A stretch of DNA of 64,000 nucleotides from Anaerolineae bacterium (GTDB lineage Bacteria; Chloroflexota; Anaerolineae; J036; Brachytrichaceae): the NCBI GenBank assembly GCA_947476335.1, contig CANJQH010000007.1, positions 1 through 64,000 of the forward strand, read 5' to 3'. A program made the translations under genes and the position numbers. The number at the start of each line of letters is the position of its first letter. Within the stretch, counting starts at the first letter, position 1. The notes beneath the pieces are model-generated. The model saw only the letters and a program-made list of their open reading frames with translations. It made no database searches and had not been told where the DNA came from. Below, one piece after another: positions 32 to 62,974 of this stretch.

Positions 32-143
32 GTAACTACTCAGGCCCAAATCAGTATTTCCCGTGAAACACAGTATTCTCTCCCCCGAAGGGGGAGAGAA
101 TACTGTGTTTCACGTTGGAAAAATGGCTGGCCTGAGTAGTTAC
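32..143 (+). mobile_element. Element A, intact 112-bp copy
   Basis: The ends are the inverted repeats GTAACTACTCAGGCC and its complement. The core is a perfect 23-bp-arm hairpin with a CCCCC-GAA-GGGGG tip. It is flanked by the exact 8-bp direct repeat CAATTACG at 24-31 and 144-151, which is a target-site duplication. It has no coding capacity. It lies upstream of the phytoene synthase gene. Confidence 0.93.
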
Positions 144-18127: not shown

Positions 18128-18322
18128 TCAGGCCTCGATTGATATTTCCCGTAACTACTCAGGCCAGCTATTTTTCCAACGCGAAACACACTATTCTCTC
18201 CCCCGAAGGGGGAGAGAATAGTGTGTTTCGCGGGAAATACTGATTTGGGCCTGAGTAGTTACTATTTCCCGCATTACACGCACCTGTTTCGCGTTGAAAA
18301 ACCGACTGACCTGAGTAGCTAC
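18128..18322. repeat. Old element A copy interrupted by a younger copy
   Basis: The outer sequence (GTCAGGCC... at 18127-18142 and GCATTACACGCACCTGTTTC... to GACCTGAGTAGCTAC at 18308-18322) is a diverged element A. The intact copy at 18151-18262 sits within it, and the host bases TATTTCCC are duplicated on either side. The old copy has lost its hairpin. Confidence 0.85.
18151..18262 (-). mobile_element. Element A, intact 112-bp copy (nested)
   Basis: It has complete terminal repeats and hairpin (CGAAACACACTATTCTC arms, CCCCC-GAA-GGGGG tip). The exact 8-bp flanks TATTTCCC lie at 18143-18150 and 18263-18270. It is inserted into an older element A copy. Confidence 0.95.
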
Positions 18323-21262: not shown

Positions 21263-21323
21263 GTAACTACTCAGGCCAGCTAGTTTTCCTACGCGAAACA
21301 CTGATTTGGGCCTGAGTAGGCAC
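21263..21323 (-). mobile_element. Element A derivative lacking the hairpin (61 bp)
   Basis: Both ends are present (GTAACTACTCAGGCC and CCTGAGTAGGCAC) with CCTACGCGAAACAC joined directly to TGATTTGGG, so the central hairpin is deleted. Flanks AAATCATC (21255-21262) and AAATAATC (21324-21331) match at 7 of 8 positions and probably represent the old target duplication. Confidence 0.85.
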
Positions 21324-23010: not shown

Positions 23011-23122
23011 GTAACTGCTCAGGCCAGCCATTTTTCCAACGCCAAACACACTATTCTCTCCCCCTTCGGGGAAGAGAATAGTGTGTTTGGCGGGAAATAT
23101 TGATTTGGGCCTGAGTAGTTAC
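23011..23122 (-). mobile_element. Element A, intact 112-bp copy
   Basis: It has complete ends and a hairpin with a compensated change (CCAAACAC paired with GTGTTTGG instead of CGAAACAC/GTGTTTCG). Exact 8-bp flanks AAAAATCG lie at 23003-23010 and 23123-23130. Confidence 0.94.
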
Positions 23123-26819: not shown

Positions 26820-26931
26820 GTAACTACTCAGGCCCAAATCAGTATTTCCCGCGAAACACACTATTCTCTCCCCCTTCGGAGGAGAGAATAGTGTGTTTCG
26901 CGTTGGAAAAATGGCTGGCCTGAGTAGTTAC
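26820..26931 (+). mobile_element. Element A, intact 112-bp copy
   Basis: It has complete ends and hairpin, with one mismatch at the tip (CCCCCTTCGGAGG). Flanks GACAAAAA (26812-26819) and GACAAAAG (26932-26939) match at 7 of 8 positions. The left flank begins inside the stop codon of the E1 beta gene. Confidence 0.93.
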
Positions 26932-28565: not shown

Positions 28566-28576
28566 CTTCTGTTGAA

Positions 28577-28688
28577 GTAACTGCTCAGGCCAGCTATTTT
28601 TCCAACGCGAAACACACTATTGTCTCCCCCTTCGGGGGAGACAATAGTGTGTTTCGCGGGAAATACTGATTTGGGCCTGAGTAGTTAC
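28577..28688 (-). mobile_element. Element A, intact 112-bp copy
   Basis: It has complete ends and a hairpin carrying a compensated pair (CTATTGTCTC/GAGACAATAG). Exact flanks CTGTTGAA lie at 28569-28576 and 28689-28696. Confidence 0.95.
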
Positions 28689-28708
28689 CTGTTGAAGCAT
28701 TAGCTACA

Positions 28709-31157: not shown

Positions 31158-31207
31158 AGCTCAATTTTTTGAAAGTTAAAAGTAGATGGTCACAGTAGAT
31201 ATTCCTA

Positions 31208-31297
31208 AGTGAGTCGCCAAAAGTTCTGGCGGCAGATTCGCCTCCCCCGCTTTGCGGGGGAGGCGAATCTGCCGGACAAAACTTATGGACAGGAACT
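31208..31297 (+). mobile_element. Element B, 90-bp copy
   Basis: Imperfect inverted ends are AGTGAGTCGCCAAAAGTT and, on the complement, AGTTCCTGTCCATAAGTT. A perfect 21-bp-arm hairpin (31230-31250/31254-31274, CGGCAGATTCGCCTCCCCCGC) lies inside. The dinucleotide TA flanks both sides, as expected for Tc1/mariner-IS630-type insertion. Confidence 0.85.
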
Positions 31298-31299
31298 TA

Positions 31300-34400: not shown

Positions 34401-34428
34401 CTGAAATCTGAAATCTGAAATCTGAAAT
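34401..34428. repeat. Four tandem 7-bp units
   Basis: CTGAAAT is repeated four times and is complementary to ATTTCAGATTTCTGATTT upstream (34343-34360), so a long imperfect stem can form after the enolase-family gene. An element A copy is inserted at its right edge. Confidence 0.75.
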
Positions 34429-34431
34429 AGG

Positions 34432-34543
34432 GTAACTACTCAGGCCAGCCAGTTTTCCAACGCGAAACACGCTATTCCTTCCCCCTTCGGAGGAAGGAAT
34501 AGCGTGTTTCGCAGGAAATACTGATTTGGGCCTGAGTAGTTAC
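34432..34543 (-). mobile_element. Element A, intact 112-bp copy
   Basis: It has complete ends and a hairpin with several compensated changes (CACGCTATTCCTTCC/GGAAGGAATAGCGTG). Exact flanks GAAATAGG lie at 34424-34431 and 34544-34551. Confidence 0.95.
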
Positions 34544-37610: not shown

Positions 37611-37655
37611 GGCCTGAATCGTTAACGTGACTCGGCAAGGTAGCAAGTCGCGCTG
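37611..37655. repeat. Remnants of element A end and element D ends
   Basis: GGCCTGAATCGTTAAC resembles the right terminus of element A. It runs into TTAACGTGACT and GGTAGCAAGTCGCG, which match the two ends of element D with the interior gone. Confidence 0.5.
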
Positions 37656-37745
37656 AGTTCCTGTCCATAAGTTTTGTCCGGCAGATTCGCCTCCCCCGCA
37701 AAGTGGGGGAGGCGAATCTGCCGCCAGAACTTTTGGCGACTCACT
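37656..37745 (-). mobile_element. Element B, 90-bp copy
   Basis: The copy is inverted relative to the one at 31208. Right flank is TA (37746-37747) and left flank is TG, so one side of the expected TA duplication has mutated. The 21-bp hairpin arms have one mismatch at the tip. It ends 18 bases before the creatininase-family gene. Confidence 0.85.
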
Positions 37746-37763
37746 TAGTTACGGAGAAATTCA

Positions 37764-42858: not shown

Positions 42859-42942
42859 GAACGCGTTGTGCGCTGAACGGCGGCGGTATGACGTCAGCGT
42901 CATGACGTACATGCAGACGAGGCAAGTGTCTAACAGGCTCTA

Positions 42943-43032
42943 AGTGAGTCGCCAAAAGTTCTGGCGGCAGATTCGCCTCCCCCGCAAAGCGGGGGAGGCA
43001 AATCTGCCGGACAAAACTTATGGACAGGAACT
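42943..43032 (+). mobile_element. Element B, 90-bp copy
   Basis: It is nearly identical to the copy at 31208, with TA on both sides (42941-42942 and 43033-43034). The hairpin arms differ at one position. It lies just upstream of the AT-rich acetyltransferase gene. Confidence 0.88.
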
Positions 43033-43086
43033 TAGCATTGGCGCTATCGCTGGTTGTGCAAGACCTCTTGCGTAAATAATTGCTTT

Positions 43087-52116: not shown

Positions 52117-52905
52117 GTGAAGTTATTCCTGCGCCGCCTGTTCGGATTCGACTATGCCGACCATATTTCTCTGCCGAAGCAGACCCGCACGGGTCTGACA
52201 TATTTTTATAGGGACGCAGTGTTTGCATTTTTTTCTGACGCGTCCTCGGCCAACTACATTAATCTTTTTCTCGTGTCGCTGAAAGCGAGCAACACTCAGA
52301 TCGGTTTCCTCACCACTTTCGTGCAAATTCTGACCGCGCTCGCGCCATTGCCAAGAGCAACGATCGCCGAACGCACCAGCCGTTATCGGGCCAATATCCT
52401 CGCGCCAGCATTCGTCGCACGCATAGGCTGGTTCGCACTTGCACTGCTCCCCTTCCTCTCACTCGGCCCGGCAGCTGTGACAGCCGCGATCACCATCTTC
52501 GGCGCCCGCATATTTCTGATGGCGTGGTTGAGCGCACCATGGACGGCATTCGTTGGCCGTCTGGTTCCTGCATATGTGAGCTACATGGCCACGCGCAACT
52601 TCGGCGGCGGCCTCGCCACGACGCCAACAATGGGCATCCCTATCGTCATCCTCGCCGGATCGCTGTGGTCGGGCCACGAATTGTCCAGCTTCAATACGCT
52701 GCTCACTGTCACACCCGAAAACGGCCGCGCAAATTTCATCGCACTGCATATGTTCGCCATCTCGCTCTTTGCCGCCGTCGGGCCGGCCATCGGCGACGCA
52801 CTCGTCGACACGATCGGCTTCTTCCCATTCTTCGCTGTCTCAGTGACGCTGCGGCTGGCAGTTGGCATTCTCCAGAATGTACTCACCAGACCCAACCCAT
52901 CATGA
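52117..52905 (+). CDS. MFS transporter paralogue with internal in-frame deletion
   Basis: The 262-residue product is a close paralogue of the next gene (LRRLFGFDYAD, ANYINLFLVSLKASNTQIGFL, RNFGGGLAT, MGIPIVILAGSLWSGHELSSFN) but lacks about 161 residues between RNFGGGLAT and TPTMGIPIV, which removes the middle membrane helices. Start and stop are intact, but transport is unlikely. The GTG at 52117 matches the paralogue's start; an ATG at 52048 would overlap the previous gene. Its stop overlaps the next ATG. Confidence 0.75.
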   Translation: MKLFLRRLFGFDYADHISLPKQTRTGLTYFYRDAVFAFFSDASSANYINLFLVSLKASNTQIGFLTTFVQILTALAPLPRATIAERTSRYRANILAPAFVARIGWFALALLPFLSLGPAAVTAAITIFGARIFLMAWLSAPWTAFVGRLVPAYVSYMATRNFGGGLATTPTMGIPIVILAGSLWSGHELSSFNTLLTVTPENGRANFIALHMFAISLFAAVGPAIGDALVDTIGFFPFFAVSVTLRLAVGILQNVLTRPNPS

Positions 52906-54182
52906 TTTCAACATTGCGCCGGCTCTTCGGCTTCGACTACGCCGACGGTCATAATCTTCCGCCACGCACACGACGCGGGCTGACTTTTTTTTACTGGGAC
53001 GCCGTCTTCGCACTGTTGTCTGACTCGTCGTCAGTCAATTACGTGAACCTGTTCCTCGTTTCGTTAAAAGCGACGAATGCACAAATCGGTTTTCTCGCAA
53101 CGATCGTACAGATCGTGAGTGCAATTGCTCCGCTTGGAGGCGGCGCAGTCGCTGAGCGCACCGGCCACTATCGGGCGAACATCCTCAAGCCATCGTTCAT
53201 CGCGCGCCTGTTCTGGTTCATGCTGGCGCTGCTGCCGTTCATGCCCCTCGGGCCGGCAGCAATAACGATTTCGATCACCATCTTCGCCGTGCGCGCGTTT
53301 TTCTTCGCATGGCTGCAAGCGCCATGGACAGCGTTCGTCGGCAAGCTCGTACCAACGGAAATTCGCGCCAGCTATCTTTCAATGCGCAATTTCGGCGGCG
53401 GCCTCGCCACCATCATCGGCACCATGCTCGCCGGCTGGATCGTCACTATCATTGGTCCACCAGGTGGCTATCAGGTCATCTTTGTCATCTCGGGCATCAT
53501 CGGCATGGCGGCACAGTGGGCGTTTTCGAACATCCCCTTCGAAGAGCCACAGCTCGCAGCGCAGCCAGCGCCGCGATTCAAGCTCCGACGCATCATCGAC
53601 AACACCATGGAAATGCTGCGGCGCTATCCAACGTTCGCACGCCTGCTCGTGTGCGACTGCGCACTCGCACTTGCCGTCGGCATCGGCGGCCCATTCATTC
53701 AGGTCTACCAGGTGCGCGTGCTCGGCTTCAGTGCGGGTATCGTCGGCCTGATGGTGTCAGGCGAAATCGCCATGAACATCATCATGCAACGCGTGTATGG
53801 CTCATACGTAATCCCACGCTTCGGCGAGCTGCGCGTGATGCGCTTCCTGCGACCGCTCACCAGCCTCGTCCCATTCGCATGGCTGTTCGCCACGACACCG
53901 GCCATGGGCATCCCGATCGTGATGCTCGCCGGAACACTCTGGTCCGGCCACGAACTTTCAAGCTTCAACACACAGCTGCACCTTACGCCGGAAGCAGGTC
54001 GTGCAAATTTCATCGCACTACACATGTTCGCCGTCTCGCTCTTCGCCGCCATCGGGCCGGCCATTGGCGGCGCACTCGTCGACACCATCGGCTTCTTCCC
54101 GCTCTTCGCTGTGTCGGCGGCACTGCGCGTCGGCGCAGGCATTCTGCTGAACGTGATGTTCAAACACAAGACGGCACACTGA
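52902..54182 (+). CDS. Major facilitator superfamily transporter
   Basis: The 426-residue protein has about 12 membrane segments. It begins MISTLRRLFGFDYAD with FFYWDAVFALLSDSSSVNYVNLFLV as the first helix and has a conserved loop SMRNFGGGLATIIGTMLAGW. No substrate motif is visible. The ATG at 52902 overlaps the stop of the truncated paralogue. The stop TGA shares two bases with the target duplication of the following element A copy. Confidence 0.83.
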   Translation: MISTLRRLFGFDYADGHNLPPRTRRGLTFFYWDAVFALLSDSSSVNYVNLFLVSLKATNAQIGFLATIVQIVSAIAPLGGGAVAERTGHYRANILKPSFIARLFWFMLALLPFMPLGPAAITISITIFAVRAFFFAWLQAPWTAFVGKLVPTEIRASYLSMRNFGGGLATIIGTMLAGWIVTIIGPPGGYQVIFVISGIIGMAAQWAFSNIPFEEPQLAAQPAPRFKLRRIIDNTMEMLRRYPTFARLLVCDCALALAVGIGGPFIQVYQVRVLGFSAGIVGLMVSGEIAMNIIMQRVYGSYVIPRFGELRVMRFLRPLTSLVPFAWLFATTPAMGIPIVMLAGTLWSGHELSSFNTQLHLTPEAGRANFIALHMFAVSLFAAIGPAIGGALVDTIGFFPLFAVSAALRVGAGILLNVMFKHKTAH

Positions 54183-54188
54183 AAAAAT

Positions 54189-54300
54189 GTAACTACTCAG
54201 GCCCAAATCAGTATTTCCCGCGAAACACACTATTCTCTCCCCCTTCGGGGGAGAGAATAGTGTGTTTCGCGTTGGAAAAATGGCTGGCCTGAGTAGTTAC
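54189..54300 (+). mobile_element. Element A, intact 112-bp copy
   Basis: It has complete ends and a perfect hairpin with the CCCCC-TTC-GGGGG tip. Exact flanks GAAAAAAT lie at 54181-54188 and 54301-54308. The left flank begins inside the MFS stop codon. Confidence 0.95.
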
Positions 54301-62674: not shown

Positions 62675-62974
62675 GTAACTAACGTGACTTGCTACCGTAG
62701 CTGGACTTTGGCCATTTTCGACGGACGCCACGGCTCGCGCCGGCGTCGCCCGCGGCGGACCCCGCCTCCGGCGCTCATGCTGGACGAAAAAGCGCCGGAG
62801 GCGCGCCGCTTACCCAGCCCGGACCAACGGTCCGGGCGTGGCATGGGCAAATTCGTCGGGGACGCGACGCCGTCGCGACCAGGCCGAAATTCTGCCTACG
62901 GTAGCAAGTCACGTTAACTACTCAGGCCCAGATCAGTGTTTCGCGTTGGAAAAATAGCTGTCCTGAGTAGTTAC
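62675..62974 (+). mobile_element. Element A derivative split by element D
   Basis: GTAACT at 62675-62680 and AACTACTCAGGCC from 62916 onwards are the two parts of an element A left end, separated by element D. The remainder lacks the hairpin (CAGATCAGT joined to GTTTCGCGTTGG) and ends CCTGAGTAGTTAC at 62974. No 8-bp duplication is visible. Confidence 0.8.
62681..62915. mobile_element. Element D, 235-bp element with 20-bp inverted ends
   Basis: AACGTGACTTGCTACCGTAG (62681-62700) is exactly complementary to 62896-62915. The flanks are AACT on both sides (62677-62680 and 62916-62919), a 4-bp target duplication within element A. The GC-rich interior has two small hairpins (CCTCCGGCGCT/AGCGCCGGAGG and CCCGGACC/CGGTCCGGG) and no credible gene. 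Confidence 0.85.

Follow-up and report, generated by a model that had tools for sequence, protein, structure and literature searches.

The window, by which we mean the whole 64-kb stretch of DNA analysed here, carries at 28577-28688 a 112-bp imperfect palindrome, element A, in which 15-bp TIRs and two asymmetric, poorly pairing outer stretches surround an inner hairpin of 25 bp whose 3-nt loop reads TTC or GAA (C-TTCG-G on one strand). Each DNA strand of the element yields the same predicted hairpin, and the predicted RNA fold (-79.1 kcal/mol, z -14) takes in the TIR helix along with the inner stem. Altogether the window holds seven complete copies of element A, along with a few incomplete ones and two hairpin-less derivatives of 61 bp, as well as copies of a second repeat, MITE B (Table 1). 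The copy at 32 recurs together with its target-site duplication (TSD) at the start of contig C29 (locus L095), and therefore the contig end at 1-143 and the start of C29 probably overlap. Elsewhere in the window, two direct-repeat pairs at 52364-54169 (283 nt at 78% and 205 nt at 70%) hint at coding domains repeated in tandem. For the neighbouring phosphofructokinase the best hits are mixed, with identities of about 60%.

Table 1. Element A at the reference locus, its other copies and derivatives, and MITE B in the window
Feature	Position	Strand	Remarks
Left 8-bp TSD	28569..28576	+	CTGTTGAA; direct repeat of 28689-28696
Element A, reference copy	28577..28688	+	112-bp MITE copy cited in the sequence-only reading
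Left TIR	28577..28591	+	GTAACTGCTCAGGCC; IS66/ISBst12-type end
Inner hairpin, left arm	28606..28630	+	columns 30-54; paired change C>G at 28622
Loop	28631..28633	+	TTC (C-TTCG-G); GAA (inverted) in half of genomic copies
Inner hairpin, right arm	28634..28658	+	columns 58-82; partner change G>C at 28642
Right TIR	28674..28688	-	
Right TSD	28689..28696	+	CTGTTGAA
Element A copy	32..143	-	paired changes in columns 32 and 41; TSD CAATTACG
Element A copy	18151..18262	+	inverted loop (GAA); TSD TATTTCCC
Element A copy	23011..23122	+	paired change in column 33, single-arm change in column 50; TSD AAAAATCG
Element A copy	26820..26931	-	single-arm change in column 52; TSD GACAAAAA/GACAAAAG
Element A copy	34432..34543	+	second subfamily (paired columns 40, 47, 48); TSD GAAATAGG
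Element A copy	54189..54300	-	TSD GAAAAAAT
61-bp derivative of element A	21263..21323	+	no hairpin
61-bp derivative of element A	62914..62974	+	no hairpin
MITE B	31206-31299, 42941-43034, 37654-37747		94 nt; TAAGTGAGTCGCC...GGACAGGAACTTA; TA ends

Across the host genome, a 3.42 Mb draft assembly of 125 contigs that is 92.7% complete, the TIR of element A matches 575 times in forward and 560 times in reverse orientation, as against 8 and 12 matches for a reversed control. A 1.57 Mb sample of this assembly contains 246 two-ended copies, 168 of them 105-120 bp and 134 exactly 112 bp in length, and on these counts the genome holds about 500 copies in all, with full-length copies outnumbering the hairpin-less 61-bp forms. 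The exact TIR was not found in 27 same-family genomes, and the single TIR match in genome G052 is compatible with chance. Scanning genome contigs for the element's pattern gave, among the matches listed, no loci beyond the host's near-own records, and the viral contigs scanned gave no match.

Perfect 8-bp duplications flank 103 of the 168 copies of 105-120 bp, as opposed to 1 of 168 with shuffled flanks; for duplications matching at 6 or more of the 8 positions the corresponding figures are 134 and 5, and among lengths from 4 to 12 only 8 bp shows an excess. Element A thereby has the attributes of a MITE, being short, non-coding, bounded by TIRs and TSDs and present in many copies. The hairpin-less forms of 58-62 bp are likewise flanked by TSDs (perfect in 6 of 18, at least 6/8 in 12 of 18), and they therefore appear either to have moved themselves or to have dropped the hairpin later. 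One TSD, CAGATTTC/GAAATCTG, occurs 8 times among the perfect ones, and tandem CTGAAATCTGAAATC tracts, seen at 34401-34430 and in many copy flanks, are repeated insertion targets of the element.

With respect to parentage, one locus (L204) in a same-family genome carries GTAACTGCTCAGCCC, a 487-aa ORF and GTAACTGCTCAGGCC within 1.5 kb, constituting a single-ORF IS66 element whose product is an IS66 transposase (DDE_Tnp_IS66, NF033517, E 1.3e-93), and the element A-type end is also present at further IS66 loci in same-family genomes. ISDge4, of the ISBst12 group, has been described as a copy-and-paste element whose ends read GTGACTACTCAGCA/GTAACTGCTCAGCA and which has a repeat of 8 bp (PMC12898284). 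By the shared TIR type, GTAACT(A/G)CTCAG, and the shared 8-bp duplication, element A is a non-autonomous MITE of the IS66/ISBst12 type. It differs from the ISBst12 group in having no internal transposase and in consisting, over its 112 bp, mostly of an inner palindrome. The IS66 transposase (PF03050) found no match in the host draft assembly, and the link to IS66 is therefore one of ends and TSD only; the host's transposase may have been lost or have gone unassembled, and we infer the identity of the enzyme acting on element A, whose gene is absent from the assembly. In the 1.57 Mb sample there was no autonomous-looking pair of TIRs 0.3-6 kb apart with a matching TSD. Two TIR pairs with the same TSD were rejected as an autonomous element: both lie at repeated GAAATCTG/CAGATTTC target sites and are best read as neighbouring copies of element A. 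Five copies (L023:10988, L023:11963, L045:1406, L046:8687 and L095:6908) have GTACCT in place of GTAACT at both ends, which could mark a different transposase preference.

Stem covariation is standard evidence for functional RNA structure, and an earlier reading of the sequence had claimed that the arms of the hairpin vary between copies but stay paired. All of the arm variants that it quoted are present in the copies concerned (CTATTGTC/GACAATAG at 28577, CAGTATTC/GAATACTG at 32, CCAAAC/GTTTGG at 23011 and CACGCTATTCCTT/AAGGAATAGCGTG at 34432), with single-arm mismatches near the loop in each of the copies at 34432 and 23011. Over the 134 full-length 112-bp copies, oriented by their outer arms, the inner stem shows 129 paired and 90 single-arm changes. 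When the two subfamilies are treated apart and four hybrids and nine distant copies are set aside, the mid-stem (columns 32-48) of the remaining 121 copies has 40 paired and 12 single-arm changes and none in which both arms changed without matching, whereas 2000 shuffles of the right arms among copies gave a mean of 1.6 paired changes and a maximum of 8. An independent structure count on 24 copies found 11 pairs with changes on both sides against 2.0 after shuffling (0 of 500 shuffles reached 11), and a slid-partner control, again on 24 copies, found 0-1. The covariation in the inner stem is thus real, as had been claimed. Since the copies share ancestry, these counts are not of independent events and a part of the paired changes was passed on by active source elements; counted as distinct event types, the mid-stem changes comprise 25 paired and 11 single-arm.

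Compensatory change under selection, which passes through worse intermediates, is expected to be slower than neutral change. We found paired changes at 0.0194 per mid-stem pair and changes in the unpaired arms at 0.0207 per site, a ratio of 0.94 (95% bootstrap 0.66-1.41) in which the unpaired arms serve as the neutral reference, although they may hold transposase-binding sites and so perhaps are not neutral. This ratio is the one predicted by unbiased arm conversion without selection, and the want of any slowdown in the stem argues against selection. The TIR pairs, with 72 single-arm and 5 paired changes (the paired ones all at position 4, A>C, in 5-6 copies), have a single-arm rate per pair of 0.0397, roughly double that per site, and are therefore unconstrained, behaving as free sites. 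Within the stem, too, pairing depends on position: the loop-proximal columns 49-54 have 4 paired and 22 single-arm changes and the basal columns 30-31 have 0 and 9, the difference between mid-stem and loop-proximal columns being significant both on cells (Fisher p = 4e-7) and on distinct events (p = 0.002), with the boundaries at columns 32 and 48 set post hoc, after inspection of the data. Unpaired changes as common as paired ones, which the sequence-only reading had named as the outcome that would speak against it, thus occur in the TIRs and, within the stem, beside the loop and at the base, but not in the mid-stem. Selection would not be expected to leave a stem poorly paired beside its loop; under fold-back copying the loop-proximal bases would prime and the basal bases would serve for the return, and hence neither would be rewritten. 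In the 52 copies with a perfect outer sequence, picked as young by that sequence only so as to avoid bias, the mid-stem has 16 paired and 3 single-arm changes, which leaves too few intermediates for a two-step route. The number of paired changes in these youngest copies does not fall in step with the divergence of the outer sequence; such changes may outpace neutral change or may go back to source elements that themselves varied.

The loop presents a further regularity: relative to the outer arms it reads CTTCGG in 55 copies and CGAAGG in 55. The tip CCCC-TTCG-GGGG had been given with its correct sequence, but with respect to the remainder of the element it is just as often reverse-complemented. 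We observed similar behavior in MITE B, which inserts at CTAG with a TA duplication and would by this target be IS630-like, and of which the sample contains 77 same-length copies, often nested inside element A. Its loop reads TTT in 40 copies and AAA in 34, and one copy (L014:19763) has a much larger inner inversion. As MITE B is unrelated to element A in its ends and target, yet flips its loop, this points to a general replication process and not to one transposase. The stem of MITE B shows 3 paired and 24 single-arm changes; arm copying is thus weaker in it, perhaps because the family is younger.

In light of these observations, we propose, and consider it probable, that the arms of element A, as an amplified IS66-type MITE, are kept matched by DNA template switching (quasipalindrome correction) with no selection for structure. 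A transposase acting in trans would have amplified the element to its present number, and point mutations would hit one arm of the inner 25-bp perfect hairpin. Once past the loop, a nascent strand could then fold back, prime on the loop-proximal base pairs, copy the other arm and rejoin its original template, whereby the mutation would be either written into both arms or erased; an inter-strand variant of the same switch would invert the loop. Through such copying, paired changes would accrue at the ordinary mutation rate without selection on RNA or DNA structure. We infer these polymerase events from what is observed in element A, namely its TIRs and TSDs, the TIR match to IS66 elements, the excess of paired changes, their position pattern and the inversion of the loop. 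Template switching has been reported to homogenise arms and invert spacers (PMC8604942; PMC7202029; PMC8794818), the inversion arising from inter-strand switching (PMC8604942; PMC8794818). Both marks are present here, in paired changes that exceed the chance level while single-arm intermediates are few (40 versus 12, and 16 versus 3 in young copies) and in spacer inversion (55:55 in element A, 40:34 in MITE B). Of the two processes between which the earlier reading had left the upkeep of the stem, selection for structure and arm-to-arm conversion, it is the second that agrees with the rate, the restriction to columns 32-48, the unmatched TIRs and the 1:1 loop. Its step from independent paired changes to a maintained stem holds insofar as the pairing is real, but what the changes record is a mutational process and not evidence of function.

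The arms might instead be copied in a folded single-stranded or hairpin intermediate of transposition, outside ordinary chromosome replication, which would leave identical marks of arm copying and loop flipping and would suit the copy-and-paste description of ISDge4 (PMC12898284). However, the TIRs, which belong to any such intermediate, are not homogenised, and MITE B, with other ends and a TA duplication, flips its loop as well; we regard this as very unlikely, though it fares best among the alternatives. A little less likely still is selection on DNA structure, with a cruciform or single-strand hairpin bound by a protein and needed for transposition or protection. The identical hairpins of the two strands and the preponderance of full-length copies over 61-bp forms would fit such a role, but the hairpin-less 58-62 bp forms retain TSDs, the substitution rate of the stem is not lowered and there is no constraint near the loop.

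Selection on a transcribed stem, kept paired as a terminator, mRNA stabiliser or sRNA with the C(UUCG)G loop favored, comes below these and is in our estimation highly improbable. It could draw on the very stable RNA fold and on the mostly intergenic location of element A. Against it stand the paired-change rate, which equals that of the unpaired arms and is not below it, the unconstrained TIR helix of the same fold, and the pairs beside the supposed tetraloop, which are among the least maintained. Single-arm G-U cells (12), in element orientation, are not above A-C cells (22). On the sense strand downstream of gene ends, moreover, UUCG occurs 43 times and its complement 39 times, and when genes are called simply from ORFs, 78 copies fall between tandem, 21 between convergent and 18 between divergent genes, with no terminator-like bias in placement. 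Neither orientation nor placement is thus that of an intrinsic terminator with a UUCG tetraloop, an Rfam search of the 64-kb window at the gathering score gave no match, and the idea that this stable RNA loop is favored is therefore not supported. Mismatch repair of extruded cruciforms, which would also give paired changes without selection, is the least probable of all, as it would leave the loop in its orientation and should make no distinction between loop-proximal and basal pairs.

Element A and the process are each of a known kind; what is unusual here is the scale, together with the internal controls. Like the systems in which quasipalindrome correction has been described (the Ripley model, E. 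coli QP reporters, PMC7202029; yeast, PMC8604942; rRNA hairpins, PMC8794818), element A shows arms turned into a perfect inverted repeat, spacer inversion and untouched bases beside the switch points; unlike them, it offers 134 copies, internal controls in its unpaired arms and non-homogenised TIR helix, and a 1:1 loop. With REP/REPIN and other bacterial palindromic repeats it shares short length, high copy number and a mostly intergenic location. For REPs, whose association is with RAYT transposases, TSDs are not known, whereas element A has 8-bp TSDs and IS66-type TIRs. With so many copies, element A provides an unusually clean natural experiment, in which strong covariation, by its rate, position and loop behavior, points to template switching during replication. 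Paired "compensatory" changes can, then, arise without RNA function, which calls for caution in taking repeat hairpins for RNA genes. The study of rRNA hairpins rates its own strongest evidence for template switching in stem maintenance as circumstantial (PMC8794818), and the element A family makes that role directly testable. More speculatively, and with doubt prevailing, hairpin flips and self-corrections may be so frequent that the two loop orientations have come to equilibrium in living populations. The family would in that case serve as a record of template switching resolved by position in the genome, by strand and by age, and the covariation seen in hairpins of bacterial repeats would in large part reflect mutation and not function. 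Finally, four hybrid copies (L026:7766, L041:9099, L046:9785 and L057:13245) combine an arm of one subfamily with an arm of the other, the arrangement that recombination at the loop between two copies of element A would leave.
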